A program made the translations under genes and the position numbers. From NCBI GenBank assembly GCA_016936555.1, contig JAFGXR010000007.1:1-64000 (forward strand): DNA of 64,000 nucleotides. Direction: 5' to 3'. Position 1 is the stretch's first letter. Each line of letters opens with the position of its first letter. The notes beneath the pieces are model-generated. The model saw only the letters and a list, made by a program, of their open reading frames with translations. It did not search any database and was not told where the DNA came from. Source of the DNA: Spirochaetales bacterium (GTDB lineage: Bacteria > Spirochaetota > Spirochaetia > DSM-2461). This document shows, in pieces, positions 20,783 through 39,048 of the stretch.

Positions 20783-22231
20783 TCAGTAGAGCCCTTCTAT
20801 TGATCCCACTGTAAAAATGACCAGTGAAACAACAATTGTTGTGAATACAGTCATAATTATCCCTGATTTCGCGAAATCGCGGATTGAAAAATATCCGGCC
20901 GAATAGGGAATGACATTGGTCGGACTCGAGGTGACCAGTATAAAAGCCAGAGACGCGGTTATGGCGGCCGGCAGGGTGATGGAAAGGGCATCGAATCCCA
21001 GATTATCAGCCAGGGCGATCATTATGGGGATGACGATCGTAGCCGTAACGCTGTTGCTCGAAAGCGCCACTTTCAGGATCATGACAATGAGAACGATAGC
21101 ACCGACTCTCAGAAGAGGCGAGAAACTGCCGATTCCGCCGAGCAGAACAAAGGAGAGCCAGCCGGCGGCGCCGGACTGATAGAGCATCATGCCGATGGAA
21201 ATTCCCGTGACGACCAGGATGATCCCGCTCCACGAAACGTCCTCTTCAATTTCCTTCCACTTCAGGGAAGTGACTCCGGGAAAAAAGAAGAGAGTCGCCG
21301 TAAAAAAGACCGGCATGGATGTGGGAATGGCGATACCCAGCAATTTCTGCAGCAGACCGGATGTGAGCCAGAGCAGCACAGTCAGGAGAAAAATAACCAA
21401 TGTCAATTTCTCTTCACGGCTCATGGGCGGATAATGATCAAACTCATGGCGCAGCTCTTCTTTGGTTTTCTTCAGATGTTTCATTTCCGGCTTAAACAGA
21501 AGCATCAGAAGCCCCCAGCCGATGGGCAGAAGCAGAATCACCGCCGGGACGCCGTACATCATCCAACGGGTGAAACTCAGGTCAATGCCGGCGATTTCTT
21601 TCAGAAAGCCTATGGCTATGGGATTGGGCCCGGCTCCTGCCGGCGTTCCGATTCCCCCGATAAGAGGACCCCACACCGTTGCAATCATCAGCGCTTTTCC
21701 GAAATTGCTTTTCAGCTTGAGACACCCTTCCTCTTCCAGAATAGCCACTCCCAGAGGCAGCAGCATGGCCGCCACGGCCATATTGGTTATCCACATGGAC
21801 AGGAGGGCCCCCACCAGCATAAAACCGAATATGATCATGGCCGTACTGTTTCCCGTTCTGGAAAGCAGGAAAACGCTGATTCTTTTCCCCAGACCCGATC
21901 TGGTGATAAAGGCGGAGAGAATCAGAACCCCGATGAAGAAGGCAATTATATGGTTTCCGAATCCGACGCTGACGATATTTTTAAAGGTATCGACACGGAA
22001 AACAGCCAGCAGGACAACGCCCAGCATCCCGGTTATATGAAAGGGAATGGCTTCGGTCATCCAGAGAATGAGACAGAACAGGAGAAGCCCCATGGCAATC
22101 TGTCCTTCCTGAGTCAGAACGCCCTTACCGGCATTACGGATTGAATCGGGAACGGGAAGAACCATCATGAGAGCCATAACCACAGCGGCTATAGCGAAAT
22201 AGAGAAGTTTTTTTCCGGTTTCTTTTGTCAT
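20783..22231 (-). CDS. DASS/SLC13-family anion transporter (probable sulfoacetate exporter)
   Basis: 482-aa membrane protein with about 12 hydrophobic segments. Family signatures are WITNMAVAAMLLP in the first half and SSNSVTATIVIP plus TSSPTNVIPYSAGYF in the second, the SNT-type repeats that bind carboxylate and sodium in DASS transporters. It is the last gene of the split-transketolase operon and overlaps the SucD-like gene as ATGA. In this context the most economical role is movement of the end product sulfoacetate across the inner membrane; import of a related anion is the alternative. Function is inferred from position; the family assignment is secure. Confidence 0.85.
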   Translation of the reverse strand: MTKETGKKLLYFAIAAVVMALMMVLPVPDSIRNAGKGVLTQEGQIAMGLLLFCLILWMTEAIPFHITGMLGVVLLAVFRVDTFKNIVSVGFGNHIIAFFIGVLILSAFITRSGLGKRISVFLLSRTGNSTAMIIFGFMLVGALLSMWITNMAVAAMLLPLGVAILEEEGCLKLKSNFGKALMIATVWGPLIGGIGTPAGAGPNPIAIGFLKEIAGIDLSFTRWMMYGVPAVILLLPIGWGLLMLLFKPEMKHLKKTKEELRHEFDHYPPMSREEKLTLVIFLLTVLLWLTSGLLQKLLGIAIPTSMPVFFTATLFFFPGVTSLKWKEIEEDVSWSGIILVVTGISIGMMLYQSGAAGWLSFVLLGGIGSFSPLLRVGAIVLIVMILKVALSSNSVTATIVIPIMIALADNLGFDALSITLPAAITASLAFILVTSSPTNVIPYSAGYFSIRDFAKSGIIMTVFTTIVVSLVIFTVGSIEGLY

Positions 22232-23121
22232 CGGACTCGATCTCCCAGCAGCTCTTTGAGATAATCGCCGACAAATCGCGGTCTTTCAGCTACTTTTCCG
22301 CCGACGCTTTCGATGGCTTTGATTTTATCTTTGACCGAGCCTTTCCCTCCGGAAACAATAGCTCCGGCATGGCCCATCCGCTTTCCTTCGGGGGCGGTCC
22401 GCCCGCCGAGGAATGCCACAAGTGGCTTGGTGAAGATTCCCAGCCCTTTCATTTCAGCGCATTCCTCTTCCATGGTGCCCCCGAGCTCACCGATAATCAC
22501 AACCGCATCGGTCTGGTCATCAGCTTCATAGAGAGGCAGCATTTCGGCGAATCTGGTGCCCGGGACGGGATCTCCTCCGATACCGATCAGAGAGGATACG
22601 CCGAATCCCGCTTTAACGACCATGGCCGTAACCTCGTTGGTGAGGGATCCGCTTCTGGTCATGACACCGATTCTGCCCTGTTTATAGACCCGTTCTATCC
22701 AGTAGGGAAAGAAACCCATCATCGCTCTGCCCGGAGAAATGACTCCCGAAGTATTTCCGCCGATAACCATGGCGCCTTCCGACATGGCGGCTTTTCTTAT
22801 CTGAACAGCATCGTGGAGAGGTATTCCATCGGCTACCGTAACGATCTTTTTTATCCCCCCGTCGAGGGCTTCAAATACGGCGTCCTTTGTAAAGCGGGGC
22901 GGCACAAACAGCATGGAAGCCTCGACTTCAACCTTGTCCACAGCTCTTCTGACAGAGTGATAGACATCCCGTCCCTCCACCTGCTGCCCCTCTTTTCCGG
23001 GAGTGACGCCGGCCACGACATTGGTTCCGCAGCCTATCATATGATTGGTCCAGAAACTCCCCTCTTTACCGGTGATTCCCTGTATGAGTACTTTTGTTGT
23101 TTCGTCGATGAATATGCTCAT
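22228..23121 (-). CDS. SucD-like CoA ligase alpha subunit (SqwL/SqwK-type, sulfoacetyl-CoA to sulfoacetate)
   Basis: 297 aa; CoA-binding Rossmann domain at the N-terminus (QGITGKEGSFWTNHM) and phosphohistidine H251 in MGHAGAIVSGG. This is the alpha subunit of an ADP-forming acyl-CoA synthetase. Ordinary succinyl-CoA ligase sits in a TCA setting; here it overlaps a CoA-acylating aldehyde dehydrogenase by way of its partner subunit, as in described sulfo-transketolase clusters, where the pair makes ATP while releasing sulfoacetate. The TGKEGSFWTNHM region differs from the standard SucD GFTGxQGTFH pattern. Substrate assigned from context; succinate is the alternative. Confidence 0.8.
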   Translation of the reverse strand: MSIFIDETTKVLIQGITGKEGSFWTNHMIGCGTNVVAGVTPGKEGQQVEGRDVYHSVRRAVDKVEVEASMLFVPPRFTKDAVFEALDGGIKKIVTVADGIPLHDAVQIRKAAMSEGAMVIGGNTSGVISPGRAMMGFFPYWIERVYKQGRIGVMTRSGSLTNEVTAMVVKAGFGVSSLIGIGGDPVPGTRFAEMLPLYEADDQTDAVVIIGELGGTMEEECAEMKGLGIFTKPLVAFLGGRTAPEGKRMGHAGAIVSGGKGSVKDKIKAIESVGGKVAERPRFVGDYLKELLGDRVR

Positions 23122-24242
23122 GGCTTCTCCCCTTTGGCGATAGCAACGGCTTTACGCACCGCCTCTTCCGTATCATAGAGAGGAACCAGACCGGCTTCCT
23201 TCAGGATCCGGCTCGCGTCCTCTTCGTTGGTTCCCCGGATACAGGTTACTATGGGCCTGTCGGGCTTGAGCCGGCTTATGGCATCGACAATCCCTTCGGC
23301 CATGACATCGGCGCGGGCTATGGTCCCGAAAGTAACGACCAGAATGACTTTAGAGTCGTTTTTCAGACAGAGCTCCATAGCCCTGACGGCTTTCTTGTAG
23401 TTCGGGCCTCCGAATTCGAGGTAGTTGGCCACGGTTCCGCCTTCATAGTTGATCAGGTCGTAAACGGTTGTAGTCAAACCGGCTCCCGCGCACATAAGGC
23501 TGATATCGCCGTCGAACTGGAGATAGGGGATTCCTTCAAGAGAGGCTTCGTACTCCGCATCGGAATCGTAGTAATCCCTTGTCTTCCCGTAAGAGGGCTG
23601 ACGGAAATCCGAATTATCGTCGATCGACAGTTTCCCGTCTCCGGCTATGATATTGCCATCACCTGTAATGAAGAGGGGATTTATTTCAATCAGCTCCGCA
23701 TCGCTGGAAACGAAAGCTTTATATAGATTAGCGAGGACCGCTGAGAATTTTTTCAGCAAGTCCCCTTCCAGCCCCAGGGAGAACCCGACGTTTTTTATCT
23801 GAAATGGCATAAGGCCTCTATCGGGATCGACGTATTCCCGTATTATCCTTTCGGGGCTCTCCACGGCGAGTGTTTCGATTTCCACTCCTCCGTCCCCGCA
23901 GGCGATAATCATGTGTTTAGCTTCAACAGGATCGACGGTGATGGAGAGATAAAGTTCTGTTTTAATATCGACAGCCTGTTCAACCAGGATTTTTCTGACG
24001 TTGTATTCCGAGTCAAATAATTCTCCGCATTCTTTACGGGCCTGTGCTTCATCGCTGACAAGGCGGATAAGACCTTTTTTACCCCGTCCGCCCATGAGAA
24101 GCTGAGATTTCAAAACAATCGGAAAACTTGTTTTCGCCATGGCATCGCTCAACTCTTCAGCATTTTTAATCAGGACGCCAGCCGGTGTTTCTATTCCGAA
24201 TTTCCTGAATGTTTCCTTGGCCTGATACTCGAATAATTTCAT
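23118..24242 (-). CDS. SucC-like CoA ligase beta subunit (SqwK/SqwL-type)
   Basis: 374-aa ATP-grasp beta subunit that takes the phosphate from the alpha-subunit histidine to make ATP. It shows the N-terminal EYQAKETFRKFGIETPAG, the nucleotide-loop lysine in KSQLLMGGRGKKGLI, the metal-binding AELIEINPLFI and the C-terminal LEFGGPNYKKAVRA. Overlaps of 4 bp with both neighbours (ATGA) indicate tight coupling with the dehydrogenase upstream and the alpha subunit downstream. Together with them it would conserve one ATP per sulfoacetyl-CoA. Confidence 0.82.
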   Translation of the reverse strand: MKLFEYQAKETFRKFGIETPAGVLIKNAEELSDAMAKTSFPIVLKSQLLMGGRGKKGLIRLVSDEAQARKECGELFDSEYNVRKILVEQAVDIKTELYLSITVDPVEAKHMIIACGDGGVEIETLAVESPERIIREYVDPDRGLMPFQIKNVGFSLGLEGDLLKKFSAVLANLYKAFVSSDAELIEINPLFITGDGNIIAGDGKLSIDDNSDFRQPSYGKTRDYYDSDAEYEASLEGIPYLQFDGDISLMCAGAGLTTTVYDLINYEGGTVANYLEFGGPNYKKAVRAMELCLKNDSKVILVVTFGTIARADVMAEGIVDAISRLKPDRPIVTCIRGTNEEDASRILKEAGLVPLYDTEEAVRKAVAIAKGEKP

Positions 24243-25642
24243 TCATATCTCCTGAAGAAATCGCCCCAGATCTCTTCATCGGTCGGTCTGACCGGAGAAA
24301 ACCACTCGGAAACAAAAGTGACATTGAGAAAATGTTTATAGGTGATATTTTCCGTGGTGATATTCCCGCCCCAGGTTCCGCAGCCCAGAGTCGTGGTCGA
24401 AGCCATGCCGTTGAAAAAGTTTCCTCCGTTAGCCGGAGCCTGCGGCTGGTTTATCATAATGCGGCTGGTCCGCATATCCAGGGACATTCGCTCAACGTAG
24501 GAAGAGTTTTTCGTATGGATTCCGCAGGAGTGACCTGTTCCGCAGTTATCTGTCAGTCTGATCAGGATCTCCATGGCGCGGTCGAAACCATTGTATTTGA
24601 AAATGGTGAGGACCGGAGAGAGTTTCTCCTGGCTGAAATAATCATCTTCAATGGCATCTGCCCCTTCAACGAGGAGGATTCTTGTCCCGCCGGGCACTTT
24701 CAAACCGGCGCCGGCGGCAATTTCCTCTGCCGATTTAGCTATAATGGCGGGATTGATAGACCGGTGTCCGTTTTTTCCGGTAATCCACATCCACTCTTCA
24801 AGAGCTTTTCTCTCTTCGCCGGTACAGAGATAGGTTCCCGCAACTTCGAGCTCTTTGACGACACTGTCATAGATGCTTTCCTCGACAATGATCGAGTTCT
24901 CGGAGGAACAGGACGTGGCATTGTCAAAACACTTGCTGAGAACCACTTTATCGACGGCATCTTTCCAGTCCGCATCCTCTGCGATGATCTGCACGGAATT
25001 TCCTGGTCCGACACCATAGGCGGGGGTACCACTCGAATAGGCCGCCTTGACCATGGCGCTGCCGCCGGTAGCCAGAACCAGATCGACCTGCTTCATTAGC
25101 TCTCCGGTCGCTTCGATAGAGGGTTCCTGAACGATCTGAATAAGATCCTCGGGAGCTCCGACACGTTTCAATCCCCGGCGCATGAATTCGACAGCTTTGG
25201 CCGATGCTTTTTTAGATCGGGGATGGGGTGCGAAAATAACGGCATTTCCCCCTTTGAGTATGGAAACCCCATTGCTGGCCGGTGTTGCCGTAGGGTTTGT
25301 CACAGGAGTCAAAGCTCCGACGACCCCGACTGGCTTGGCATATTTTTTAATTTTCTTCTCAGGTATTTCCTCGATACAGCCCGTGGATTTCACCCCTTTT
25401 AAATCATTGATAACGCCGAGAACTTTCCCTTTGTGTTTAGCAATTTTATCGGGAACATTTCCCATACCGGTTTCCTCAACTGCCATTTCCGCAAGAATTT
25501 TAATATTCTCGTCATTATAGACTTCCCAGGCGACAGCCAGACAGATATCGTCAAGCTGCTGCTGGGAATAGCCGGCGGCCACAGACTGCGCCGCCCGGGC
25601 TTTTTCAACAAGAGAGGCTATCATCTGCGCTGTTTCAGCCAT
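24239..25642 (-). CDS. CoA-acylating aldehyde dehydrogenase (sulfoacetaldehyde dehydrogenase, SqwD/SauS-type)
   Basis: 467 aa, an aldehyde dehydrogenase of the acetylating (AdhE-N/EutE-like) branch: it oxidises an aldehyde with NAD(P)+ and CoA to the acyl-CoA. The catalytic cysteine lies in FDNATSCSSENS and the conserved PVTNPTATPASNGV and GTGHSCGIHT segments are present. In this operon the expected substrate is sulfoacetaldehyde from the second transketolase step. Start at 25642 with GGAGGAAGAG upstream; the ATG overlaps the end of the isomerase gene by 8 bp. Acetaldehyde or another short aldehyde is the alternative if the pathway assignment is wrong. Confidence 0.85.
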   Translation of the reverse strand: MAETAQMIASLVEKARAAQSVAAGYSQQQLDDICLAVAWEVYNDENIKILAEMAVEETGMGNVPDKIAKHKGKVLGVINDLKGVKSTGCIEEIPEKKIKKYAKPVGVVGALTPVTNPTATPASNGVSILKGGNAVIFAPHPRSKKASAKAVEFMRRGLKRVGAPEDLIQIVQEPSIEATGELMKQVDLVLATGGSAMVKAAYSSGTPAYGVGPGNSVQIIAEDADWKDAVDKVVLSKCFDNATSCSSENSIIVEESIYDSVVKELEVAGTYLCTGEERKALEEWMWITGKNGHRSINPAIIAKSAEEIAAGAGLKVPGGTRILLVEGADAIEDDYFSQEKLSPVLTIFKYNGFDRAMEILIRLTDNCGTGHSCGIHTKNSSYVERMSLDMRTSRIMINQPQAPANGGNFFNGMASTTTLGCGTWGGNITTENITYKHFLNVTFVSEWFSPVRPTDEEIWGDFFRRYE

Positions 25643-26123
25643 AGATCTCTTCCTCCAGTTTCTGGACCTCTTTAAAGGCATTGGTCAGAAAGTCTTTTTT
25701 GAATTCCATTTTCTGGGTAAAAGCCATGGAAAGCCAGGCGTCCACGATCTGAGTACCCAGGAAAGGCGCCGTGATCCATCCCCCCATGGTGATGATATTG
25801 GCGTTGTTTATGATCTTGCTCCGTTCGGCGGCAAAAACGCTGTCCACGACCGAAGCGTATACACCTTTGAATTTATTGGAGACAATGGCCATTCCCTGAC
25901 CGGTACCGCAGATAAGAATACCTTTTTCAGCCTCGCCGCTCTGCACGCACCTGGCCACTTTGGGAGCCTGTTCGAAATAGGGTTTGGGGTTCTCTTCCGA
26001 TTCAATTCCGAAATCGATCACTTCTATCGCGTCGGCATAATTTTCTTTCAGATGTTCAACGACAGCTTTTTTCAGGGGAAAACCCGATAGATCCGATGCA
26101 ATTGCCAGTTTTATTTTTTCCAT
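25635..26123 (-). CDS. RpiB/LacAB-family sugar isomerase (SqwI-type sulfoerythrose isomerase)
   Basis: 162 aa with the RpiB fold. The catalytic-base cysteine C72 is kept in LICGTGQG. Two residues that RpiB uses for its phosphorylated, ring-closed substrate are changed: the ASDHAG motif reads ASDLSG (residues 9-14), and the ring-opening His of SREHNDAN is Ile105 in SKIINNAN. Both changes fit a non-phosphorylated, open-chain substrate such as 4-deoxy-4-sulfoerythrose, which has no 4-OH to close a ring. It lies between transketolase and the aldehyde dehydrogenase, as in sulfo-transketolase clusters. The residue comparison is from memory of E. coli RpiB. Confidence 0.82.
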   Translation of the reverse strand: MEKIKLAIASDLSGFPLKKAVVEHLKENYADAIEVIDFGIESEENPKPYFEQAPKVARCVQSGEAEKGILICGTGQGMAIVSNKFKGVYASVVDSVFAAERSKIINNANIITMGGWITAPFLGTQIVDAWLSMAFTQKMEFKKDFLTNAFKEVQKLEEEIYG

Positions 26124-26139: not shown

Positions 26140-27078
26140 CTATTTTCTTTTGATCAGCGCCTTGGCTTTTTCTGCAATATTTTCTTTAGTGAATCCGTAG
26201 GCTTCTTTCAGATATTCGAGCGTCCCGACCTGACCGAACTGATCTTCGACAGCGACGGCCGCCACGGGAGCGGGATATTCCTCACCGAGACACTCCGCAA
26301 CGGCGCTGAAAAGTCCGCCTTTTTTCTGATGGTTCTCACAGACCAGAACGGCGCCGGTTTTTTCAGCGCTCTCCACTACCAGTTTTCTGTCGAGAGGCTT
26401 TACTGTATGCATATCGATGACGCGGGCATTTATTCCCTCATCGGCGAGCATCTCAGCCGCGGCCAGCGCTTCGGGAACCATGACGTACCCGCTGGCGATG
26501 ATGGTCAGATCTTCCCCCTCTTTCAGAACATTGCCCTTTCCGAGAACGATCTCATCGGATTCGCCGTAGAGGGTGTATTTCCCTTTTCTCTGAAGACGCA
26601 TATACGTGCTGCCCTTATGTTCAGTCGCTTGCCTGATCAGGGATTTCAGCGATACGCTGTCGCAGGGTTCGAAAATAACCAGGCCGGGAATGCAGCGCAT
26701 GAGGCCCGTATCCTCAAAGGGCATATGGGTTCCGCCGTTGAAGGCCGCGGTAACGCCCGGATCGGTTCCCACAAGTTTTACGTTCTGCTGAGCGTAATTG
26801 GCGGAAATAAAAAACTGATCGTAGGATCTTCTGGCGGCAAAACAGCCGAAAGTGGCGGCCCAGGGGATTTTCCCGCCTGCGGACAGACCGGAAGCGACCC
26901 CGACCATATTGGCTTCGGCGACACCCACATTAAAAGCCCTCTCGGGGAATTTGTCTTTGAATGATCCGGTTCCCGTGGCTCTCATCAGATCCGCCTCGAG
27001 AACGCAGATTCTCTGATCGGCATCAGCCATTTCCATCAGAGTTTCCGTATATACATCTCTCATATCTTTATCTGACAT
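26140..27078 (-). CDS. Split transketolase, C-terminal subunit (SqwH-type)
   Basis: 312 aa: pyrimidine-binding domain (residues about 1-165; RDVYTETLMEMADADQRI, conserved Glu in VGVAEANMVGVASGLS) and the C-terminal domain (about 190-312). It pairs with the adjacent N-terminal subunit to form a TPP enzyme that moves two-carbon ketol units. Proposed reactions here are sulfofructose + glyceraldehyde-3-P to sulfoerythrose + xylulose-5-P, then sulfoerythrulose + glyceraldehyde-3-P to sulfoacetaldehyde + xylulose-5-P. Start placed at 27078 with GAGGAA upstream, 16 nt after the partner gene. Confidence 0.88.
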   Translation of the reverse strand: MSDKDMRDVYTETLMEMADADQRICVLEADLMRATGTGSFKDKFPERAFNVGVAEANMVGVASGLSAGGKIPWAATFGCFAARRSYDQFFISANYAQQNVKLVGTDPGVTAAFNGGTHMPFEDTGLMRCIPGLVIFEPCDSVSLKSLIRQATEHKGSTYMRLQRKGKYTLYGESDEIVLGKGNVLKEGEDLTIIASGYVMVPEALAAAEMLADEGINARVIDMHTVKPLDRKLVVESAEKTGAVLVCENHQKKGGLFSAVAECLGEEYPAPVAAVAVEDQFGQVGTLEYLKEAYGFTKENIAEKAKALIKRK

Positions 27079-27094
27079 CGTTATTTCCTCTTCC

Positions 27095-27913
27095 TCAACC
27101 CAGCGCTTCAATGGCTTCTTTCGCCTGTTCGTAGGTGAAAGCCATATTGTGATTGGTAATGACCCCTTCCGCGAAGGAGCAGCCTTTGCCCTTGATAGTA
27201 TCCATAATGATCATGGTCGGCTTATCCTTCGATTCCCTGGCTCTGTCGATCGCAGCGTCGAGTTCGGCGAAGCTATGGCCGTTCACCCTGTCGGTATTCC
27301 ACCCGAAAGCCTTCCATTTGGCTTCGGGATCATCTATGGACATGATTTCGCTGGTGTAGCCGTCTATCTGCATTTTGTTGTAGTCGGTAAACGCAATAAG
27401 CTTGTTGAGTCTGAACTGAGAGGCCGTCATGGCCGCTTCCCAGTTCTGCCCTTCCTGGGATTCCCCGTCTCCGATGATGGCGAAGACATTGCGCTCCGAT
27501 TTATCGAGCCTCATGGCCAGAGCCAGCCCGATGGCCGATGAAAGTCCCTGCCCGAGAGATCCGGTCGTCATATCTATTCCCGGCGTCCTGTTCATATCGC
27601 AGTGGCTGGGAAGATTGGTACCGCCCACATTGAGAGTGCGGAGCCATTGTTCGGGAAAAAAGCCTTTCTGAGCCAGAGTGCTGTACAGCGCCGGCCCGGC
27701 ATGACCTTTGGAGAGGACGAGCTTGTCCCGGTCTTCCATTTTCGGATTGGAGGGATCCACATGCATTTTCCTGTAATAGAGAATGGTCAGCAGATCGGCA
27801 ATGGACATGGCGCCGCCTATATGCCCGACTCCGAGAAAACCGATAGAATCTATGGTTTTTTTTCTGATATCTTTCGCCAGATCTTCAAGATCTTTGTATT
27901 TGTTTTCAGACAT
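27095..27913 (-). CDS. Split transketolase, N-terminal subunit (SqwG-type)
   Basis: 272 aa: the pyrophosphate-binding half of transketolase. The TPP motif runs from GDGESQEGQNWEA to the following Asn in FTDYNKMQIDG; GHIGGAMS, LSKGHAGPALY and TTGSLGQGLS are typical. Split transketolases also serve ordinary pentose metabolism, so the specific role comes from its neighbours. First gene of the leftward seven-gene operon; its upstream region shares a TTACTTAC box with the ROK gene and the ABC transporter promoter. Confidence 0.88.
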   Translation of the reverse strand: MSENKYKDLEDLAKDIRKKTIDSIGFLGVGHIGGAMSIADLLTILYYRKMHVDPSNPKMEDRDKLVLSKGHAGPALYSTLAQKGFFPEQWLRTLNVGGTNLPSHCDMNRTPGIDMTTGSLGQGLSSAIGLALAMRLDKSERNVFAIIGDGESQEGQNWEAAMTASQFRLNKLIAFTDYNKMQIDGYTSEIMSIDDPEAKWKAFGWNTDRVNGHSFAELDAAIDRARESKDKPTMIIMDTIKGKGCSFAEGVITNHNMAFTYEQAKEAIEALG

Positions 27914-28067: not shown

Positions 28068-29246
28068 ATGGCGAAATCTGACCTGCCTCTCCGCGGAAAC
28101 GATATTAGAATCATAAATGAAAAGCTGATTCTGGGTCTGATACAGAAGAACGGCAACCTGTCTCAGTCGGAAGCGGTGAACCTCACAGGCCTGAAACCGC
28201 CTACTATTTTACGCATTTTCGCCAATCTTGAAAATGAAAAACTCATCACAATTAATAAAAAATCAGATATTTCCACAGATAAAAAAGGCAGAAAACCGGT
28301 TTATTATAAAATAAATGCCAAAGCCGCCTATGCTATCGGCATAGATTTCTGTTCCACATCCATTTCTGTCGTCATCGTCGACTTCAACCGCAGACCGGTA
28401 TACAGCAAGTTTATCGATATCAATGAGGACCACACAGGCGATTCCATATTCGAACTGATCTGCCAGCTGATACAGGAGGGAATTGATTCGAAATCGATTC
28501 CGAAATCAAGATTGCTGGGAATCGGTATCGGAGCCCCGGGGAAAGTCGATATTTCGTCGGGATCTGTCATTTTTTATGATCGCATTGCCGGATTATCGGA
28601 CTATCCACTCCGGAAGAAAATGTCGGAACGGTTCAATACGGAGATTTTCGTCAACAACAACTGCTCCGTCATCGCCATGAACGAATATCAGTACGGCACG
28701 GTTTCCGAATCCCAGTCCCTCGTAACTCTGCTTATAAGAAGCGGTGTGGGCGGAGCCTTCATCAATGAAGGCCAGGTTCTTACGACCAAAGGCTCAACTA
28801 CGATGGAAATCGGCCATACATCCATTGATTACAACGGCAGACAATGCGAGTGCGGAGAACGGGGGTGCCTTCAGTCCTATCTTGCGGAACCGGCTATAAT
28901 GAAAGACATTCAGGTCCTATCTCCTCTGAAAACTTTTCTCGAAATAGATGAACTGATCGGAAACAATTCTCCCGGAATTGAAGATTTTATAAAAGGCAAA
29001 GCCGAACAGATGACAAAAGGTCTGAAAATGCTCAGCCGGGTTTTTTCTCCCGACACGTTTCTGATTATTTCCCGCTCTCCTCTCTACGCTCAGAAGCTGG
29101 CATATTACACAAACGAGCTTTTACAGAACGATCCCTGCCGGTTTGATAATATCGAAGGGCTGACAATCGAACACTGCGCCTACAATCCTGTGCATGCCGG
29201 ACAGGGAGCCGCCGACCTCGTATTTACAGACTATTTCACTCACTGA
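28068..29246 (+). CDS. ROK-family transcriptional regulator
   Basis: 392 aa. An N-terminal winged helix-turn-helix (about residues 18-85, NLSQSEAVNLTGLKPPTILRIF) is followed by a ROK sugar-sensing domain with the GIGIGAPGKVD nucleotide-site pattern and the zinc motif CECGERGC after EIGHTSID. This is the NagC/XylR type of repressor. Its position between the two divergent catabolic arms and the shared TTACTTAC boxes suggest that it represses both arms until SQ or a pathway sugar binds. AGGAAG lies before the ATG. Confidence 0.9.
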   Translation: MAKSDLPLRGNDIRIINEKLILGLIQKNGNLSQSEAVNLTGLKPPTILRIFANLENEKLITINKKSDISTDKKGRKPVYYKINAKAAYAIGIDFCSTSISVVIVDFNRRPVYSKFIDINEDHTGDSIFELICQLIQEGIDSKSIPKSRLLGIGIGAPGKVDISSGSVIFYDRIAGLSDYPLRKKMSERFNTEIFVNNNCSVIAMNEYQYGTVSESQSLVTLLIRSGVGGAFINEGQVLTTKGSTTMEIGHTSIDYNGRQCECGERGCLQSYLAEPAIMKDIQVLSPLKTFLEIDELIGNNSPGIEDFIKGKAEQMTKGLKMLSRVFSPDTFLIISRSPLYAQKLAYYTNELLQNDPCRFDNIEGLTIEHCAYNPVHAGQGAADLVFTDYFTH

Positions 29247-29271
29247 TCCTTCATGTTTTTAAAGATTTTAT

Positions 29272-29317
29272 TTGACAGGCATTTATCAGTCGTGATTTAC
29301 TTACTTATCGTAAGTAA
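29272..29317 (+). promoter_or_regulatory. ABC-transporter promoter overlapped by a perfect ROK-type operator
   Basis: TTGACA (29272-29277) is followed after 17-18 bases by an ATTTAC/TTTACT -10 region that runs into a perfect 8-bp palindrome, TTACTTAC-N5-GTAAGTAA, at 29297-29317. AAGGAG and the ATG of the binding-protein gene follow. Binding here would cover the -10 region. Confidence 0.75.
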
Positions 29318-29334
29318 TTAAAAAGGAGAATGAA

Positions 29335-30597
29335 ATGAGAAAAATCACTTTTCTGGTTCTTTCACTGACTCTTATCGTGGCAGGTACTGTTTTTGCCAAC
29401 GGTCAACAGGAAAAAGACAAAGAAATCGTTCTGAAATGGCCTTCAATCTGGGTCGGTGAGGATTCAAAAGCCGGTGTCGTAGCACAACTGGTCGAGCAGT
29501 TCAATGCCGATAACGCAGGAATGATCAAAGTTGAGGTTGAAGCACAGCCCGACTATGACGGATACGAGCAGAAGATAAGAACATCCATCGCCGCCGGTAT
29601 CGTTCCCGATATTTTCACAATGAAACTCAACCCCACAACCAAAGCTTATTACGACTCTCCCCTTCTGATGGATTTTTCAAAAGAGCTGAGTACGGGATGG
29701 GGCAAAGACTTCAACGAGGGCACAGTCGCACAGGCAACTGTCAACGGCATGGTAAAATCCCTTCCCTACGAAGTGGCTATTACACCGGTATGGTACAATA
29801 TGGACCTTTTCAAAAAGGCCGGCGTTTCCAAATATCCCCGGACCTACGCTGAATTCCTCGACGCGGCGGCCAAGCTTAAAGCAGCCGGTTTTATTCCCAC
29901 ATCCCAGATGACCGGCGGATCCAATGCTTGGACTTCCATGCTCTGGTATTCCCATTTTCTGGCTTCTTTCGGCGGCCCGGATGTTTATGCCAATCCTTTC
30001 GGAACTGATGCTTATGTAAAAGCGGCTGAAGTTCTTCTCGCCATGTACAGCGATGGAAATACTTCCATGGACGCCATCGGTGGAGATGCCGGCGTTTCCG
30101 GAGGCCATTACCTGGCCGGAGAGTCCGCGATGTTCATAAATGGCCCCTGGTACATCGGCCGTGTAAAAACCGAAGCTCCCGCCGTATACAGCGCAACGGA
30201 AGTCGGTCCCGCACCAGCAGCCGGAAGCCAGAAAGGCGCCATGATCGGTTTCCTCCAGACAAACTTCGCCGCGGCAGCAAACGCCGACGACCCTGAAAAA
30301 GCCGCAGCCGCAGTCAAGTTCATAAAATGGATGACAAAAGCTGAAAATGTGGCGAAAATTTCCGCAGCGTCCGGAGCCATGTTCGCCGTCAAATACGATT
30401 CATCTTCGATCAGTGATGAACTGATGGGCAAATTCATCAACGCTTCCAACGATGCATCATTCACAATTCCCCATCTCGAAGGTGTTGTCACTTCCGATGT
30501 AATTACAGAGTTCGGACAGGCTCTCGGAAAAATGGCTCTCGGCGAAGCCACACCGAAAGAGTTTGTTGAAATGCTGAAAAAAGTTCAGGACCAGTAA
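29335..30597 (+). CDS. ABC sugar transporter, extracellular solute-binding protein
   Basis: 420 aa, family 1 solute-binding protein. The signal peptide ends near TVFANGQQ; there is no lipobox cysteine, so it is likely a soluble periplasmic protein. The mature part has the usual two-lobe pattern (IVLKWPSIWVGEDSK start; AINGPWYIGR-like GESAMFINGPWYI near residue 262). In this locus the likely ligand is SQ or sulfoquinovosyl glycerol. AAGGAG lies before the ATG. The partner permeases follow after a 200-bp gap that contains a MITE-like repeat. Confidence 0.88.
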   Translation: MRKITFLVLSLTLIVAGTVFANGQQEKDKEIVLKWPSIWVGEDSKAGVVAQLVEQFNADNAGMIKVEVEAQPDYDGYEQKIRTSIAAGIVPDIFTMKLNPTTKAYYDSPLLMDFSKELSTGWGKDFNEGTVAQATVNGMVKSLPYEVAITPVWYNMDLFKKAGVSKYPRTYAEFLDAAAKLKAAGFIPTSQMTGGSNAWTSMLWYSHFLASFGGPDVYANPFGTDAYVKAAEVLLAMYSDGNTSMDAIGGDAGVSGGHYLAGESAMFINGPWYIGRVKTEAPAVYSATEVGPAPAAGSQKGAMIGFLQTNFAAAANADDPEKAAAAVKFIKWMTKAENVAKISAASGAMFAVKYDSSSISDELMGKFINASNDASFTIPHLEGVVTSDVITEFGQALGKMALGEATPKEFVEMLKKVQDQ

Positions 30598-30623
30598 ACA
30601 TATCTTAGTACTATAATGATATC

Positions 30624-30773
30624 AGGGGCTGTTGCAAAAGAAGACATCTGTTCTGCCCCTCAACCCCGGCCCTTCTCCCAAAAGGAGAAGGGAGAATAGC
30701 TCGCTTTGAACTCCTCTCCCTCCGGGAGAGGCCGGGTGAGGGCTGTGGAAATGGACTTTTGCAACAGTCGCCT
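30624..30773. mobile_element. MITE-like element between transporter genes
   Basis: About 150 bp bounded by terminal inverted repeats: the left end AGGGGCTGTTGCAAAAG matches the reverse complement of the right end, with a perfect core CTGTTGCAAAAG. Inside, CCCTCAACCCCGGCCCTTCTCCC and its complement form further arms (GGAGAGGCCGGGTGAGGG), so the whole can fold into a long hairpin. There is no open reading frame. This is the look of a non-autonomous transposon or REP-like palindrome. The terminal TGTTGCAAA resembles ends of several IS families. I could not see a clear target duplication. Confidence 0.75.
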
Positions 30774-30800
30774 TATTTCTCTTTCAAGGAAAACACCGAA

Positions 30801-31679
30801 ATGAAAAAAAACAAGAATATCAGAATGATATTGCTTTTCCTTGTTCCCGTTGCCTTTCTCTACATCAGCTTTTTTATCTATCCTCTGGCATTCGTTCTGG
30901 GAACGAGTCTCACAGAGTGGAACGGGATCACGGAAATGAAATTCGCCGGAATTGACAATTACAAAAAGCTGCTGACCGACGAGACCTTTCTTCTGTCCAT
31001 AAAAAACAACATTATATGGGCCTTATCCGGTGGTTTCATCCAGATTCCGCTGGCGACTATGGTGGCGTTAATACTTGCAAGGAAGCCGAAAGGATGGAAA
31101 ACGCTCAGGACGATCTATTTCCTTCCAAATATTATTTCCGCCGTTGCCATCGCCATGATGTGGAAAGCCATATACAATCCCATGTACGGTTTTCTCAATG
31201 CCTTTTTAAATCTGTTCGGAATTGAAGGCCATAACTGGCTCGGGGAGACGGCGACGGCTCTGCCTTCCGTCATAGCCCAGACAGTCCTCTACATCGGCTA
31301 TTTTATGGTTATCATATTCGCCGCGACGACGACCATTCCCAAATCCTTTTACGAAGCCGCTGAAATTGACGGATGCACGACCCTTCAGCAGGAGTGGTTT
31401 ATAACGATACCCATGATCAGGGGGATCCTGGTGACAACCATAACCCTGGCCATGGCTTACGGTATGCGCCATTTCGAAGCGACTTTTCTGATGACAAGCG
31501 GCGGTCCGGCTCACTCAACCTCTGTTATGGGTCTGATCCTGTACAACAAAATGGACGCCTTCCGCCTCGGCGAGGCCAATGCGACCGGTACGATACTCAT
31601 CCTTCTGGGTACAGTGGTAATCGTTGTGATCCGCAAACTTCTTTCGGGAAGGGATGCCGGATCCGATTCGGTGCAGTAG
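30801..31679 (+). CDS. ABC sugar transporter permease 1 (MalF-like)
   Basis: 292 aa with six membrane segments and the EAA-loop EAAEIDGCTTLQQEWFITIP that contacts the ATPase. Start chosen at the ATG at 30801 (AAGGA upstream); an in-frame TTG at 30759 lies inside the MITE-like repeat. It works with the binding protein and the second permease. No ATPase gene lies in the locus, so a shared MsmK/MsmX-type ATPase encoded elsewhere is likely. Confidence 0.92.
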   Translation: MKKNKNIRMILLFLVPVAFLYISFFIYPLAFVLGTSLTEWNGITEMKFAGIDNYKKLLTDETFLLSIKNNIIWALSGGFIQIPLATMVALILARKPKGWKTLRTIYFLPNIISAVAIAMMWKAIYNPMYGFLNAFLNLFGIEGHNWLGETATALPSVIAQTVLYIGYFMVIIFAATTTIPKSFYEAAEIDGCTTLQQEWFITIPMIRGILVTTITLAMAYGMRHFEATFLMTSGGPAHSTSVMGLILYNKMDAFRLGEANATGTILILLGTVVIVVIRKLLSGRDAGSDSVQ

Positions 31680-31689
31680 GAGTATTGTA

Positions 31690-32514
31690 ATGAAAGTATT
31701 TTTAAACACCCTGAAATGGATTATTCTCATATTTTTTCTTTTCGTGGCCCTGTATCCCCTTATCTGGCTCCTCCTGGCGTCTTTTAAAGCCAATAACCTG
31801 GAATTACAGCAGAACCCCTTCGGTTTTCCCGAAAAGTGGATGTTCATCAACTATTACAACGCCATGGTCAAAGCGAAACTTCCCTCCCTGTTTATCCATT
31901 CGATCATCGTGGCCTTCAGTGCCGTTTTCCTTAACCTTCTGGTAGCCTCCATGACATCCTTCGTCATTTCAAGAGAGGATTTCAAAGGCAAGAATGTACT
32001 TCTGACAGTCATAGCCGCGGGAATACTGCTGCCCATCATCTCTTTCATGGTCCCCTACTTTACCATAATTCAGAAAATGAGGCTCTACGATTCTCTTCTG
32101 GCTTTGATTATTGTCTACAGCGCTATTAACATTCCCATTTCCGTCTTTCTCCTCACGTCGTTTATGGGATCCATCCCCGTGGAGCTGGAGGAAGCTGCTA
32201 CGATCGACGGCGCCGGTTTTGTGCAGAGATTTACGAAAGTCATTATCCCCCTTTCCCAGACGGGTCTGGCGACGGCCGGAACATTCTGCTTTATCTATTC
32301 CTGGAACGAGTTCATAATGGCGCTTCTTCTCACCTCTTCCGAATCGTCCAGGACCCTGCAGCTGGGCATACGGTTCTTTACCAGCCAGTTCGTCACTGAC
32401 TATACGGCCATGTATGCGGCCATTGTCATAACAATTATCCCGAGCATCGTCGTGTATTTTATTTTCCACAACAAAATTATCTCCGGATTGACAGCCGGAG
32501 CTGTAAAGGGTTGA
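31690..32514 (+). CDS. ABC sugar transporter permease 2 (MalG-like)
   Basis: 274 aa with six membrane segments and the EAA loop EEAATIDGAGFVQRFTKVIIP. The start is the ATG at 31690, after TAGGAG that spans the stop codon of the first permease; an ATG at 31654 lies within that gene. Followed 7 nt later by the GH31 glycosidase, so uptake and hydrolysis genes are co-transcribed. Confidence 0.92.
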   Translation: MKVFLNTLKWIILIFFLFVALYPLIWLLLASFKANNLELQQNPFGFPEKWMFINYYNAMVKAKLPSLFIHSIIVAFSAVFLNLLVASMTSFVISREDFKGKNVLLTVIAAGILLPIISFMVPYFTIIQKMRLYDSLLALIIVYSAINIPISVFLLTSFMGSIPVELEEAATIDGAGFVQRFTKVIIPLSQTGLATAGTFCFIYSWNEFIMALLLTSSESSRTLQLGIRFFTSQFVTDYTAMYAAIVITIIPSIVVYFIFHNKIISGLTAGAVKG

Positions 32515-32521
32515 GATTTCC

Positions 32522-34513
32522 ATGAAACTGATTGCCAATAAAAAAGGATTTACGCTCTCTCATAAAAACAGGATTCTTCTGTCCCATTCAGCTGAAGCAC
32601 CGGCCATTTTCGCCGGCACTGGAGAGGGAAAGTACAAATTCAATTACGGCCTCTTCAAAATCAAAGACAGCAATCTCAAAATGCAGAGCTGCCTCGACTA
32701 CAAAGTGGAGGAGTCTTCCGGCGATCTGATCCGGATCTCCTTTTCCTGCGGCTTCTCTCTTGTTTTCAGAGAAGTTCAGGACCGCATTCATATGGAATCG
32801 GAGCAGACAAATAACAGGCTGAACCGCTTCAAACTTATACTGAAAGCTTCTGAAAAAGAGCATATCTACGGTTGCGGCGAACAGTATACCAAGCTGGATC
32901 TGAGAGGGCAGAAACTTCCGATCTGGGTGCAGGAGCCGGGACTGGGACGGGGGAAGGATCTGATAACCCTTCTGGCTGAAATGAAACAGGGATACGGGGG
33001 AAATGCCTTCACCACTTATTTCTCTCAGCCGACTTTTGTCTCGTCGGACAACTGGTACTTCCACTCCGAGGGGACAGCCTACAGCGAATTTGATTTCAGG
33101 AAGAAAAAAGAGCACAGCCTGGTTTTCTGGCAGATTCCCCGGAAGATTATTTTCGGAGTTGAAAAAAGTGCCGTCGAAACTCTCTCTTCCCTCTCCGCCT
33201 ATCTGGGCCGGCAGAGAAAGCCCCCGGAATGGGTTTATGACGGGATGTTGATAGGAATGCAGGGCGGCCGGGAAGTGACGACGAAAAAGCTGCAGGACGC
33301 CCTGGATGCCGGTGTTAAAACGGCTGCGATATGGTGTCAGGACTGGGAGGGTATCCGCATAACCTCATTCGGCAAGCAGCTCTTCTGGGACTGGAAACCC
33401 AACGAAGAACTATACCCCGATTTCAAAGGATATATGAAAGAGCTGAACGGCAAAGGGATTAAATATCTCGGTTACATCAATCCGTTTCTGGCTCTGGAAG
33501 GTCCTCTTTACGCTGTGGCGAAGGAAAAGAACTACTGTGTCAAAAACGATAAGGGAGAGGATTATTACGTCTATATAACGACTTTCCCCGCCGCTATGGT
33601 AGACCTCACGAATCCCGAAGCGGTCAAATGGATCAAAGAGGTTATAAAAAAAGATATGATCGCCAGAGGCCTTTCCGGATGGATGGCCGATTTCGGAGAA
33701 TATGTGCCGGCCGATGCGGTTCTCCATTCCGGTGTCGATCCCGAGGTTTATCACAATCAGTATGCTGCGGACTGGGCCCGAATCAATTATGAAGCGGTCC
33801 TGGAAGCCGGTAAAGAAAATGAAATTACCTACTTTATGCGCGCCGGATATACGGGATCGTCAAAGTATTCGGCCATGAACTGGAACGGCGATCAGCTTGT
33901 GAACTGGAGCCTGGACCAGGGATTCGCCACGGTAATTCCCGGAACCATATCCATGGGCTTTTCCGGGATAGGTTATACTCATTCCGATCTCGGCGGCTAT
34001 ACGACGATCCTCTGGCTGAAAAGGAGCAAAGAGCTGTTTATGCGCTGGGCCGAACTCTCCGCTTTCACCCAGACCATGAGAACCCATGAAGGGAACCGGC
34101 CCGACTCGAACTGGCAGTTCAACAGCGATGATGAAACGCTCTCCCACCTGGCGAGAATGACTGAAATCTACACAAAACTGAAACCCTATCACCTGGCTCT
34201 TTCCGATGAATATCAGAAAAGCGGAATCCCGCCGGTCCGTCATCCCTATATCCACTATGAAAAGGATAAGGTCCTTCATAATCTGAAATATCAGTATATG
34301 TACGGCAGGGATCTTCTGGTTGCCCCCGTTATAAGTCAGGGCAAAGAGAAATGGAAAGTCTATCTCCCCTCCGATAAATGGATACATCTCTGGAGCGGAA
34401 AAGAATACAAAGGCGGATGGTTCACCGTTGACAGTCCCCTGGGTCACCCTCCGGTTTTCTATAGAAAGAACTCCGAATTTGCATCTCTATTTCAGGAGAC
34501 CGGTCTATGTTGA
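32522..34513 (+). CDS. GH31 glycosidase, sulfoquinovosidase (YihQ-like)
   Basis: 663-aa cytoplasmic glycoside hydrolase family 31 enzyme, expected to release SQ from sulfoquinovosyl glycerol. The nucleophile is D390 (MADFGEY) and the acid/base D457 (NWNGDQ). Spacing to the E. coli YihQ active site is gap-free in this stretch: taking YihQ Q262, Q288, R301, W304, D405, D472 and Y508, the equivalents are Q247, Q273, Q286, W289, D390, D457 and Y493. All match except R301, which is Gln286. That Arg binds the substrate sulfonate in YihQ, so specificity or affinity may differ. Long matching segments such as QTMRTHEGNRP and HSDLGGYTT support the subfamily. YihQ numbering is from memory. The stop overlaps the next gene by 7 bp. 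Confidence 0.85.
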   Translation: MKLIANKKGFTLSHKNRILLSHSAEAPAIFAGTGEGKYKFNYGLFKIKDSNLKMQSCLDYKVEESSGDLIRISFSCGFSLVFREVQDRIHMESEQTNNRLNRFKLILKASEKEHIYGCGEQYTKLDLRGQKLPIWVQEPGLGRGKDLITLLAEMKQGYGGNAFTTYFSQPTFVSSDNWYFHSEGTAYSEFDFRKKKEHSLVFWQIPRKIIFGVEKSAVETLSSLSAYLGRQRKPPEWVYDGMLIGMQGGREVTTKKLQDALDAGVKTAAIWCQDWEGIRITSFGKQLFWDWKPNEELYPDFKGYMKELNGKGIKYLGYINPFLALEGPLYAVAKEKNYCVKNDKGEDYYVYITTFPAAMVDLTNPEAVKWIKEVIKKDMIARGLSGWMADFGEYVPADAVLHSGVDPEVYHNQYAADWARINYEAVLEAGKENEITYFMRAGYTGSSKYSAMNWNGDQLVNWSLDQGFATVIPGTISMGFSGIGYTHSDLGGYTTILWLKRSKELFMRWAELSAFTQTMRTHEGNRPDSNWQFNSDDETLSHLARMTEIYTKLKPYHLALSDEYQKSGIPPVRHPYIHYEKDKVLHNLKYQYMYGRDLLVAPVISQGKEKWKVYLPSDKWIHLWSGKEYKGGWFTVDSPLGHPPVFYRKNSEFASLFQETGLC

Positions 34514-35163
34514 AAGATCTGATTGAGGTCAACAAGCCCCTGGCGATTTTTCCTGTAGACTCCCCTGCCATGGACCGGTACGGACGGATTATCACAGGGA
34601 TAGACTGTTCCGATATGATCAATCCTTCGACGGAGGCGGCAGTGCCTGAGAACCCGACCTATCTCAGAGATCTTGAAGAGTTGCGCAGACAGGAATCTTT
34701 CGACCAGATCAGCCGTGAAGTCTACGGGGGAAAAATAGCGCTGCAGGCGGGCATCTGTTTCGGATACAACGACAGAATGAACGGGATGGAATACCACGAG
34801 GGCAGCGAAGTCATCGTAGCAATTACCGATTGTGTCCTCATTCTGGGGCGCTGCGAAGATATTCACGATGATATCTGGGATTCCTCGCTGGCCGAATGTT
34901 TCTATCTGCCGGAAGGGACTGTGCTGGAATTGTACAGCAATACGCTCCACCTCGCCCCCTGCCGCACCACCGACGCCCCGTTCTGCACTGTGATTATCCT
35001 CCCCGAAGGTACGAACAGACCTCTGGAGGGGAAATCGATCTCCGATCATCCCACTTATTTTATGGAAAATAAATGGCTGATCTGCCACAGCGAATCACCG
35101 GCTGTCCAGAGGGGAGCTTATGTTGGAATCCGCGGCGATAATATACGGATTAAGACGGTTTGA
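34507..35163 (+). CDS. DUF4867 cupin-like protein, probable sulfoquinovose isomerase
   Basis: 218 aa. The pattern GMEYHEGSEVIVAITDCVLILG, followed by PEGTVLELYSNTLHLAPC, is that of the DUF4867 (KduI-like cupin) family, with probable metal ligands in EYHEGSE and at Glu and His of the second segment. As I recall, members serve as SQ/sulfofructose isomerase in transaldolase- and transketolase-type sulfoglycolysis. It would convert SQ to 6-deoxy-6-sulfofructose, the first transketolase substrate. It overlaps the GH31 gene and is followed by a terminator, closing the rightward arm. Confidence 0.78.
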   Translation: MLKDLIEVNKPLAIFPVDSPAMDRYGRIITGIDCSDMINPSTEAAVPENPTYLRDLEELRRQESFDQISREVYGGKIALQAGICFGYNDRMNGMEYHEGSEVIVAITDCVLILGRCEDIHDDIWDSSLAECFYLPEGTVLELYSNTLHLAPCRTTDAPFCTVIILPEGTNRPLEGKSISDHPTYFMENKWLICHSESPAVQRGAYVGIRGDNIRIKTV

Positions 35164-38300: not shown

Positions 38301-39032
38301 CTACATGGGAATTCCCGCATTTCTGAATTCCGAGGTTATACGGTCCATAAACTCCCTGTCGGGGGGGGAGGTTCTTCCCAGACTGTATTGCAGCCCTTCC
38401 TGCACCCATTTTTCCTCACCCATTTTGTGGAAGGGAAGGAGTTCGAACTTCTCCAGCGAGGGTATATCCTTCAGGATCTCCTTCAGGGCCTGTAGATTAT
38501 CCCTTCGGTCTGTCAATCCCGGAACGACGACATGCCTGATCCAAAGGGGCTTTCGTGATTGTATGAGATAGCGGAGTATCCTTCGCGGCCGATCTGCGGG
38601 AACTCCAGCTAGTTCCCGATGCTTTTCCGCCAGAGCGGTTTTTATATCCAGAATAATAAGGTCCGCTTCATCGAGGCAATCCCGCACCCGGTCCAGGAGT
38701 CCGTAACCCGATGTATCGATTGCGACAGACATATCCTTTTCGTGAGCCTTTCGAATGACATCCAGAACGAAATCGGGCTGAGACAGAGGTTCGCCCCCGC
38801 TGAGCGTTATGCCGCCGCCCGATGCTTTCATATATGTCCTGTATTTCCAGGCTTCATCGACCAGCTCCTGCGAAGACATCTCCCGCCCCTTTCCGAAATT
38901 CCAGCTGTCGGGGTTGTGGCAATAGAGGCAGCGCAGGGGACAGCCCTGAAGAAAAGCGACAAAGCGGATTCCCGGCCCGTCGACCATGCCGCCTGTTTCC
39001 AATGCGTGAATTCTTCCCTTTACCGTCCCCAT
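38301..39032 (-). CDS. pflA: Pyruvate formate-lyase activating enzyme
   Basis: 243-aa radical SAM enzyme that installs the glycyl radical on PFL. The [4Fe-4S] cysteines are C31, C35 and C38 (CPLRCLYC); the GGxxxxP-type SAM segment reads SGGEPLSQPDF. Located 16 nt downstream of pflB on the same strand, so co-transcribed. Oxygen sensitivity of both proteins implies anaerobic growth. Confidence 0.96.
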   Translation of the reverse strand: MGTVKGRIHALETGGMVDGPGIRFVAFLQGCPLRCLYCHNPDSWNFGKGREMSSQELVDEAWKYRTYMKASGGGITLSGGEPLSQPDFVLDVIRKAHEKDMSVAIDTSGYGLLDRVRDCLDEADLIILDIKTALAEKHRELAGVPADRPRRILRYLIQSRKPLWIRHVVVPGLTDRRDNLQALKEILKDIPSLEKFELLPFHKMGEEKWVQEGLQYSLGRTSPPDREFMDRITSEFRNAGIPM

Positions 39033-39048
39033 TTTTTAACTCCTCTAT

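Follow-up and report, generated by a model that had tools for sequence, protein, structure and literature searches.

The GH31 glycosidase encoded in the window, the 64,000-nucleotide stretch of Spirochaetales DNA analyzed here, carries Gln (Gln286) at the position of Arg301 of YihQ, which we take to be the residue contacting the sulfonate. In the alignment of relatives, the set Arg301–Asp/Glu366–Gly368–Glu369 was exchanged as a block for Gln286–neutral351–Thr353–Thr354. We consider it probable (roughly 0.6) that the enzyme is a retaining α-sulfoquinovosidase of the YihQ kind, representing a second, Gln-type class with a rebuilt and uncharged sulfonate pocket. The block exchange supports this reading, as it is expected if the function was kept by another arrangement of residues.

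Identity and pocket residues of the window enzyme

The enzyme scored 874 bits against the YihQ family model PRK10426 (cut-off 553) and 587–697 bits against the SQases in the PDB, and the next GH31 reached only 160 bits. The remaining GH31 members of the window genome were only 27–28% identical to it. The phmmer alignment with YihQ among PDB sequences (5aed; 693 bits) had no gaps between query residues ~147 and 658, with the offset constant at 15, which bore out the YihQ numbering and the offset given in the initial annotation. The numbering was fixed because the 5aee sequence contains Asn in the D472 column. In this ungapped alignment, Q247, Q273, W289, D390, D457, and Y493 corresponded to Q262, Q288, W304, D405, D472, and Y508 of YihQ. 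Both catalytic Asp residues of the family (the nucleophile and the acid/base) were therefore present, as were the equivalents of Q262, Q288, W304, and Y508 from QQRWY; we take QQRWY and KERWY to be the names of SQase pocket motifs. The equivalent of Arg301 was absent, and the assignment of Q286 to the position of the sulfonate-binding Arg, made initially from the sequence, was confirmed by the ungapped alignment with YihQ (Table 1). Arg occupied the 301 column in all the solved SQases aligned (5aed, 5aee, 8r56, 6pnr, and 5ohy). Sequences with Gln (QQQWY) and Arg in this column are hereafter referred to as Gln type and Arg type, respectively.

The AF2 model of the enzyme built from the alignment reached a pLDDT of 90 and a pTM of 0.91 (the single-sequence AlphaFold model reached a pLDDT of only 32.5). 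Its Z scores were 56–58 to SQases and at most 41 to other GH31 enzymes, and its mean pLDDT was only 71–76 in pocket segments 281–290 and 351–360, which are the two exchanged segments. YihQ (5AED), Eubacterium rectale SftG (6PNR), BmSQase of B. megaterium (8R56), and the A. tumefaciens SQase (5OHY) showed full-length homology (41–46%) and the same fold. These solved GH31 SQases and the window enzyme have in common the catalytic Asp pair, Q262 and Q288 (Lys and Glu in the A. tumefaciens enzyme), W304, and Y508. They differ in that the solved enzymes combine Arg301 with Asp/Glu366 and an FGEF loop, whereas the window enzyme combines Gln with a neutral residue and an ITTFP loop.

KERWY-type SQases (the A. 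tumefaciens enzyme and that of locus L088) provide a precedent for an active SQase with a rebuilt sulfonate pocket, although they retain Arg301 and the FGEF loop and are altered at positions 262 and 288 instead. On pNP-SQ, YihQ and SftG reach kcat/KM values of about 1e5 per M per s (PMC11968277). The GH188 SQases offer a parallel to the Gln type in that a subset exhibits an altered sulfonate-binding position and distinct gene clusters, but these enzymes have an unrelated fold and an NAD-dependent mechanism, and it is the backbone of their altered residue that touches the sulfonate, whereas the Gln type loses a side chain (PMC11465081).

Table 1. Genes of the putative sulfosugar locus and codons of the GH31 pocket, in positions of the window
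Feature	Position	Strand	Basis
DASS-type anion symporter, possible sulfoacetate exporter	20783..22231	-	PF00939, TIGR00785; same family in L012, L013, L023, L121, L126
SqwL-like acid-CoA ligase alpha subunit	22228..23121	-	Curated-model search
SqwK-like ADP-forming acid-CoA ligase beta subunit	23118..24242	-	Succinate-CoA ligase models slightly below cut-off
SqwD-like CoA-acylating sulfoacetaldehyde dehydrogenase	24239..25681	-	NCBIfam best match SauS, 522 bits (cut-off 600), hence a relative
SqwI-like RpiB/LacAB isomerase	25635..26123	-	PF02502; 66-75% to L033, L086, L132
SqwH-like transketolase C subunit	26140..27111	-	PF02779/PF02780
SqwG-like transketolase N subunit	27095..27913	-	PF00456; 57-66% to sulfo-TK loci L018, L033, L086, L132
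ROK-family regulator	28068..29246	+	PF00480
ABC importer solute-binding protein	29335..30597	+	PF01547; 47-51% identity to Arg-type SQ loci L080, L086
ABC importer permease A	30759..31679	+	PF00528
ABC importer permease B	31654..32514	+	PF00528
GH31 YihQ-like glycosidase, Gln type (QQQWY), 663 aa	32522..34513	+	NCBIfam PRK10426, PDB SQase matches, AF2 model
Q247 codon (YihQ Q262), conserved pocket residue	33260..33262	+	Alignment
Q273 codon (YihQ Q288), conserved pocket residue	33338..33340	+	Alignment
Gln286 codon CAG (YihQ Arg301)	33377..33379	+	Ungapped alignment and sequence
W289 codon (YihQ W304), invariant in 131/131 Q/R-type rows	33386..33388	+	Alignment of relatives
F322 codon (YihQ Y337)	33485..33487	+	Phe in 47/60 Gln-type, Tyr in 66/71 Arg-type
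Loop 351-358 YITTFPAA (YihQ 366-373 EFGEFYGG), varies with residue 286	33572..33595	+	Alignment of relatives
D390 codon, catalytic nucleophile (YihQ D405)	33689..33691	+	Alignment
D457 codon, acid/base (YihQ D472)	33890..33892	+	Alignment
Y493 codon (YihQ Y508)	33998..34000	+	Alignment
DUF4867 (SqvB/SftX family, putative SQ ring-opening or mutarotase protein), overlaps GH31 stop	34507..35163	+	PF16161, 203 bits

Pocket exchange and phylogeny of the relatives

Relatives were gathered by a genome scan and whole-genome searches, and 132 YihQ-like sequences were sampled. The 301 column contained Arg in 71, Gln in 60, and Leu in one of these sequences, counts that differ from natural frequencies because the sample was weighted towards the query. 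The Gln type was found in Spirochaetota and Bacillota (Clostridia, Erysipelotrichia, and Bacilli), and the Arg type was seen in every sampled sequence from Pseudomonadota, in most from Bacilli, and in some from Clostridia and Spirochaetota. The initial annotation had described an Arg-to-Gln replacement in this enzyme; the difference was seen in the window enzyme, but Gln is fixed in a large, multi-phylum subfamily rather than being an oddity of one protein.

The loop after position 365 (YihQ numbering) varied together with this residue. An acidic residue (Asp or Glu) occupied position 366 in 70 of the 71 Arg-type sequences but was very rare there in the Gln type; position 368 was Gly in 66/71 Arg-type versus Thr in 47/60 Gln-type sequences, and position 369 was Glu (65/71) versus Thr or Ser (41/60). 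Tyr or Asp occupied position 371 in most Arg-type sequences versus Pro in 37 of the 60 Gln-type sequences. VEFGEFYGG of YihQ corresponds to VYITTFPAA of the window enzyme, that is, Asp/Glu366-Phe-Gly-Glu-Phe-Tyr to neutral-Ile-Thr-Thr-Phe-Pro. Arg301 and the acid at 366 appear to change jointly, as one unit, and we infer from the covariation a contact between side chains 301 and 366; an independent-pairs test of these positions yielded three contrasts, too few for significance. In the 132-sequence alignment, Q262, Q288, and W304 were the same in both types, as was Y/F508 nearly always.

A compensating Lys, Arg, or His specific to the pocket was not conserved in the Gln-type sequences of this alignment, and an Arg from another position filling the site, which would have spoken against the initial annotation, was likewise not found, there being no conserved Arg or Lys in its place among the Gln-type relatives. 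Lys or Arg at sequence position 131 was commoner in the Gln type (68% vs 21%). Four YihQ-like proteins with eroded pockets (L109, L157, L162, and L163; motifs ERRWDDD, GRQWDVC, GRQWDTC, and KELWDPY) are apparently no longer SQases.

In trees computed without the site columns, Arg-type sequences appeared in two places, namely one large clade and a second group (L094–L097) inside the Gln-type part, whose members combine Arg301 and Asp366 with another loop. Monophyly of all Arg-type rows was strongly rejected (AU p = 8e-39), and a root on the Q|R split was not rejected (AU p = 0.50). Rooted trees point to Gln as the ancestral residue; we do not claim this because the outgroup branch is very long and the Q|R root is not rejected. 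Since neither the rooted trees nor the AU test fixed the direction of the change, the term "replaced" in the initial annotation may name the wrong one.

Gene neighborhoods in the window and across the subfamily

The window locus consists of divergent operons, with the sulfo-TK set and the symporter on the minus strand and the ROK regulator, importer, GH31, and DUF4867 on the plus strand. The GH31 is the sole glycosidase of the locus. Homologs of SqwGH, SqwI, SqwD, and SqwKL occur together in the window, SqwD and SqwKL being assigned by homology and context only, and the importer subunits are 47–65% identical to those beside Arg-type SQases (L080 and L086). The importer operon (28068–34513) contains no ATPase gene; therefore, a shared MsmK-type ATPase is presumably used. 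The glycyl radical enzyme and activase encoded downstream (38301–41274) are an ordinary pyruvate formate-lyase, with 1192 bits against a cut-off of 994, and the activase of that enzyme; this match ruled out a sulfonate lyase.

A sulfo-TK variant forming sulfoacetate via SqwD and SqwKL has been reported for Spirochaetes among others (PMC12890257). The window shares with it the transketolase pair, RpiB-type isomerase, acylating dehydrogenase, ADP-forming ligase pair, and DUF4867, whose members have been proposed as ring-opening or mutarotase partners in SQ pathways (PMC9594981, PMC11968277). SqvD is named as the SQ isomerase of the sulfoacetate pathway, whereas a profile search for SqvD, which scored >670 bits in other genomes, gave no match in three genomes of the window genus (G000, G011, and G012; 95, 99, and 88% complete, respectively). 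For the first step after the GH31 in this genus, the conversion of SQ to sulfofructose, the RpiB-type SqwI, DUF4867, and an AGE-family protein encoded elsewhere are candidates.

Counting by tblastn with SQ-pathway markers gave at least two SQ-pathway genes in 67 of the 74 Arg-type loci, 28 of the 49 Gln-type loci, and 18 of the 24 Gln-type loci with the TTFP loop of the query. In 14 genomes (loci L023, L033, L077, L079, L083, L085, L090, L132, L137, L192–L195, and L198), the sole YihQ-like protein found was of the Gln type, with SqvD nearby and usually with transketolase or transaldolase genes, and these genomes are the main argument for activity of Gln-type enzymes on SQ. In L137, a (2S)-3-sulfopropanediol dehydratase (1387 bits against a cut-off of 1000) is encoded in the same run of genes, pointing toward DHPS, a product of SQ. 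In the rumen, yihQ of Oscillospiraceae and Sphaerochaetaceae was enriched on SQ, and sulfo-transketolase genes were transcribed in both groups (PMC13219744). Several genomes encode a protein of ~740–820 aa directly before the Gln-type GH31 (L077:5515-7977, L083, L087, and L136:10711-12924), for which no Pfam match was obtained at 1e-6.

Around the Gln-type GH31 of two deep Spirochaetota clades (L184–L191, other families), which keep the QQQWY pocket, tblastn found no SQ genes. Within genus g81, SqvD, SqwG, SqwH, and SqwI surround the GH31 in the Arg-type members (L127–L130). G147 (L125), the member of the Gln type, shares the flanking genes with them but is missing SqvD, MFS, DASS, and SqwGHI; its genome contained neither SqvD nor an SqwH-like transketolase. 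The comparison of L125 with L127–L130 is a natural experiment tying Arg301 and Asp366 to the SQ genes. Both types were present in ten genomes, which suggests that they perform different jobs. One spirochaete sulfo-TK locus (L200) contained YihQ-like genes of both types.

Function of the Gln-type pocket

If the window enzyme is an SQase, its importer would take up a glycoside of SQ (for example, SQ-glycerol), and the SQ freed by the GH31 would enter the adjoining sulfo-transketolase route to sulfoacetate, with a gain of ATP. In place of a guanidinium paired with an acid, neutral hydrogen-bond donors would hold the sulfonate; the putative donors are Gln273, Gln286, the NH of Trp289, Tyr493 via water, and possibly a hydroxyl or backbone NH of Thr353/Thr354. 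We infer every step of this sequence from Gln286 to the holding of the sulfonate. The SQase reading is supported because the nearest solved structures are all SQases and because the locus matches the Spirochaete sulfo-TK variant and has an importer homologous to those of Arg-type SQ loci. It is weakened by the lack of a compensating positive charge, the SqvD gap in the genus, L184–L191 and G147 without SQ genes, and the ten genomes with both types. All of these except the missing charge make another substrate possible for at least some Gln-type enzymes. Whether the sulfonate is held otherwise or another glycoside is preferred, the choice posed by the initial annotation, is still the right question, and the context favors the former for most of the subfamily, with counter-evidence for some members. 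As for verified SQases with Gln, many of which would have spoken against the initial annotation, none was found among the structures and literature searched, and this literature yielded no published activity of any Gln-type enzyme.

In the main rival reading, the pocket of the query clade may instead be tuned to a different glycoside (another 6-sulfo-sugar, such as the substrate of a sulfofucosidase, or an SQ conjugate with an unusual aglycone), with the gain of Arg as an SQ specialization. We regard this as possible but unlikely. The absence of SqvD from the query genus despite the rest of the sulfo-TK set is consistent with it, as are the joint occurrence of the two types in ten genomes and in L200 and the findings that sulfofucosidases are unidentified and that pNP-sulfofucoside is not cleaved by the SQases from E. 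coli and A. tumefaciens (PMC12421959). However, many loci that have SqvD together with transketolase or transaldolase contain no YihQ-like protein other than a Gln-type one, and the shared Q262, Q288, W304, and nearly invariant Y/F508 also argue against a different glycoside. A rather doubtful extension would be that Gln-type enzymes form a functional class of their own, acting on another natural sulfosugar glycoside, with a SqvD-free sulfo-TK pathway in the window genus in which the RpiB-type isomerase or DUF4867 isomerizes first.

It is quite improbable that the sugar bound in the Gln-type pocket is neutral or lacks a sulfonate, as in an ordinary α-glucosidase or quinovosidase, and that the placement of the enzyme in the locus is incidental. 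The uncompensated loss of the single fixed positive charge, the deep Gln-type clades apart from any SQ genes, and the Gln-type congener G147 without SqvD and SqwGH would fit such a sugar, but the operon linkage to SQ genes recurs in two phyla, and the locus has no other glycosidase, the other GH31 proteins of the genome being as distant as noted above. Although CGG to CAG is a single transition, a sequencing error or decaying pseudogene is refuted because Gln was also found in congeners (74–88% identity) and in dozens of sampled sequences (60/132) with co-varying positions, and the frame is intact.

Arg301 is treated as a hallmark of GH31 SQases. Judging from the sampled sequences, the Gln type is a widespread second pocket type located mostly in sulfosugar gene clusters. 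If the Gln type hydrolyzes SQ, sulfonate recognition would be possible without the charge of Arg301, and motif-based annotation would miss a large class of enzymes, among them those of many spirochaetes and of Oscillospiraceae from gut and rumen. Otherwise, a set of genes that environmental surveys are prone to count as yihQ would encode something else.
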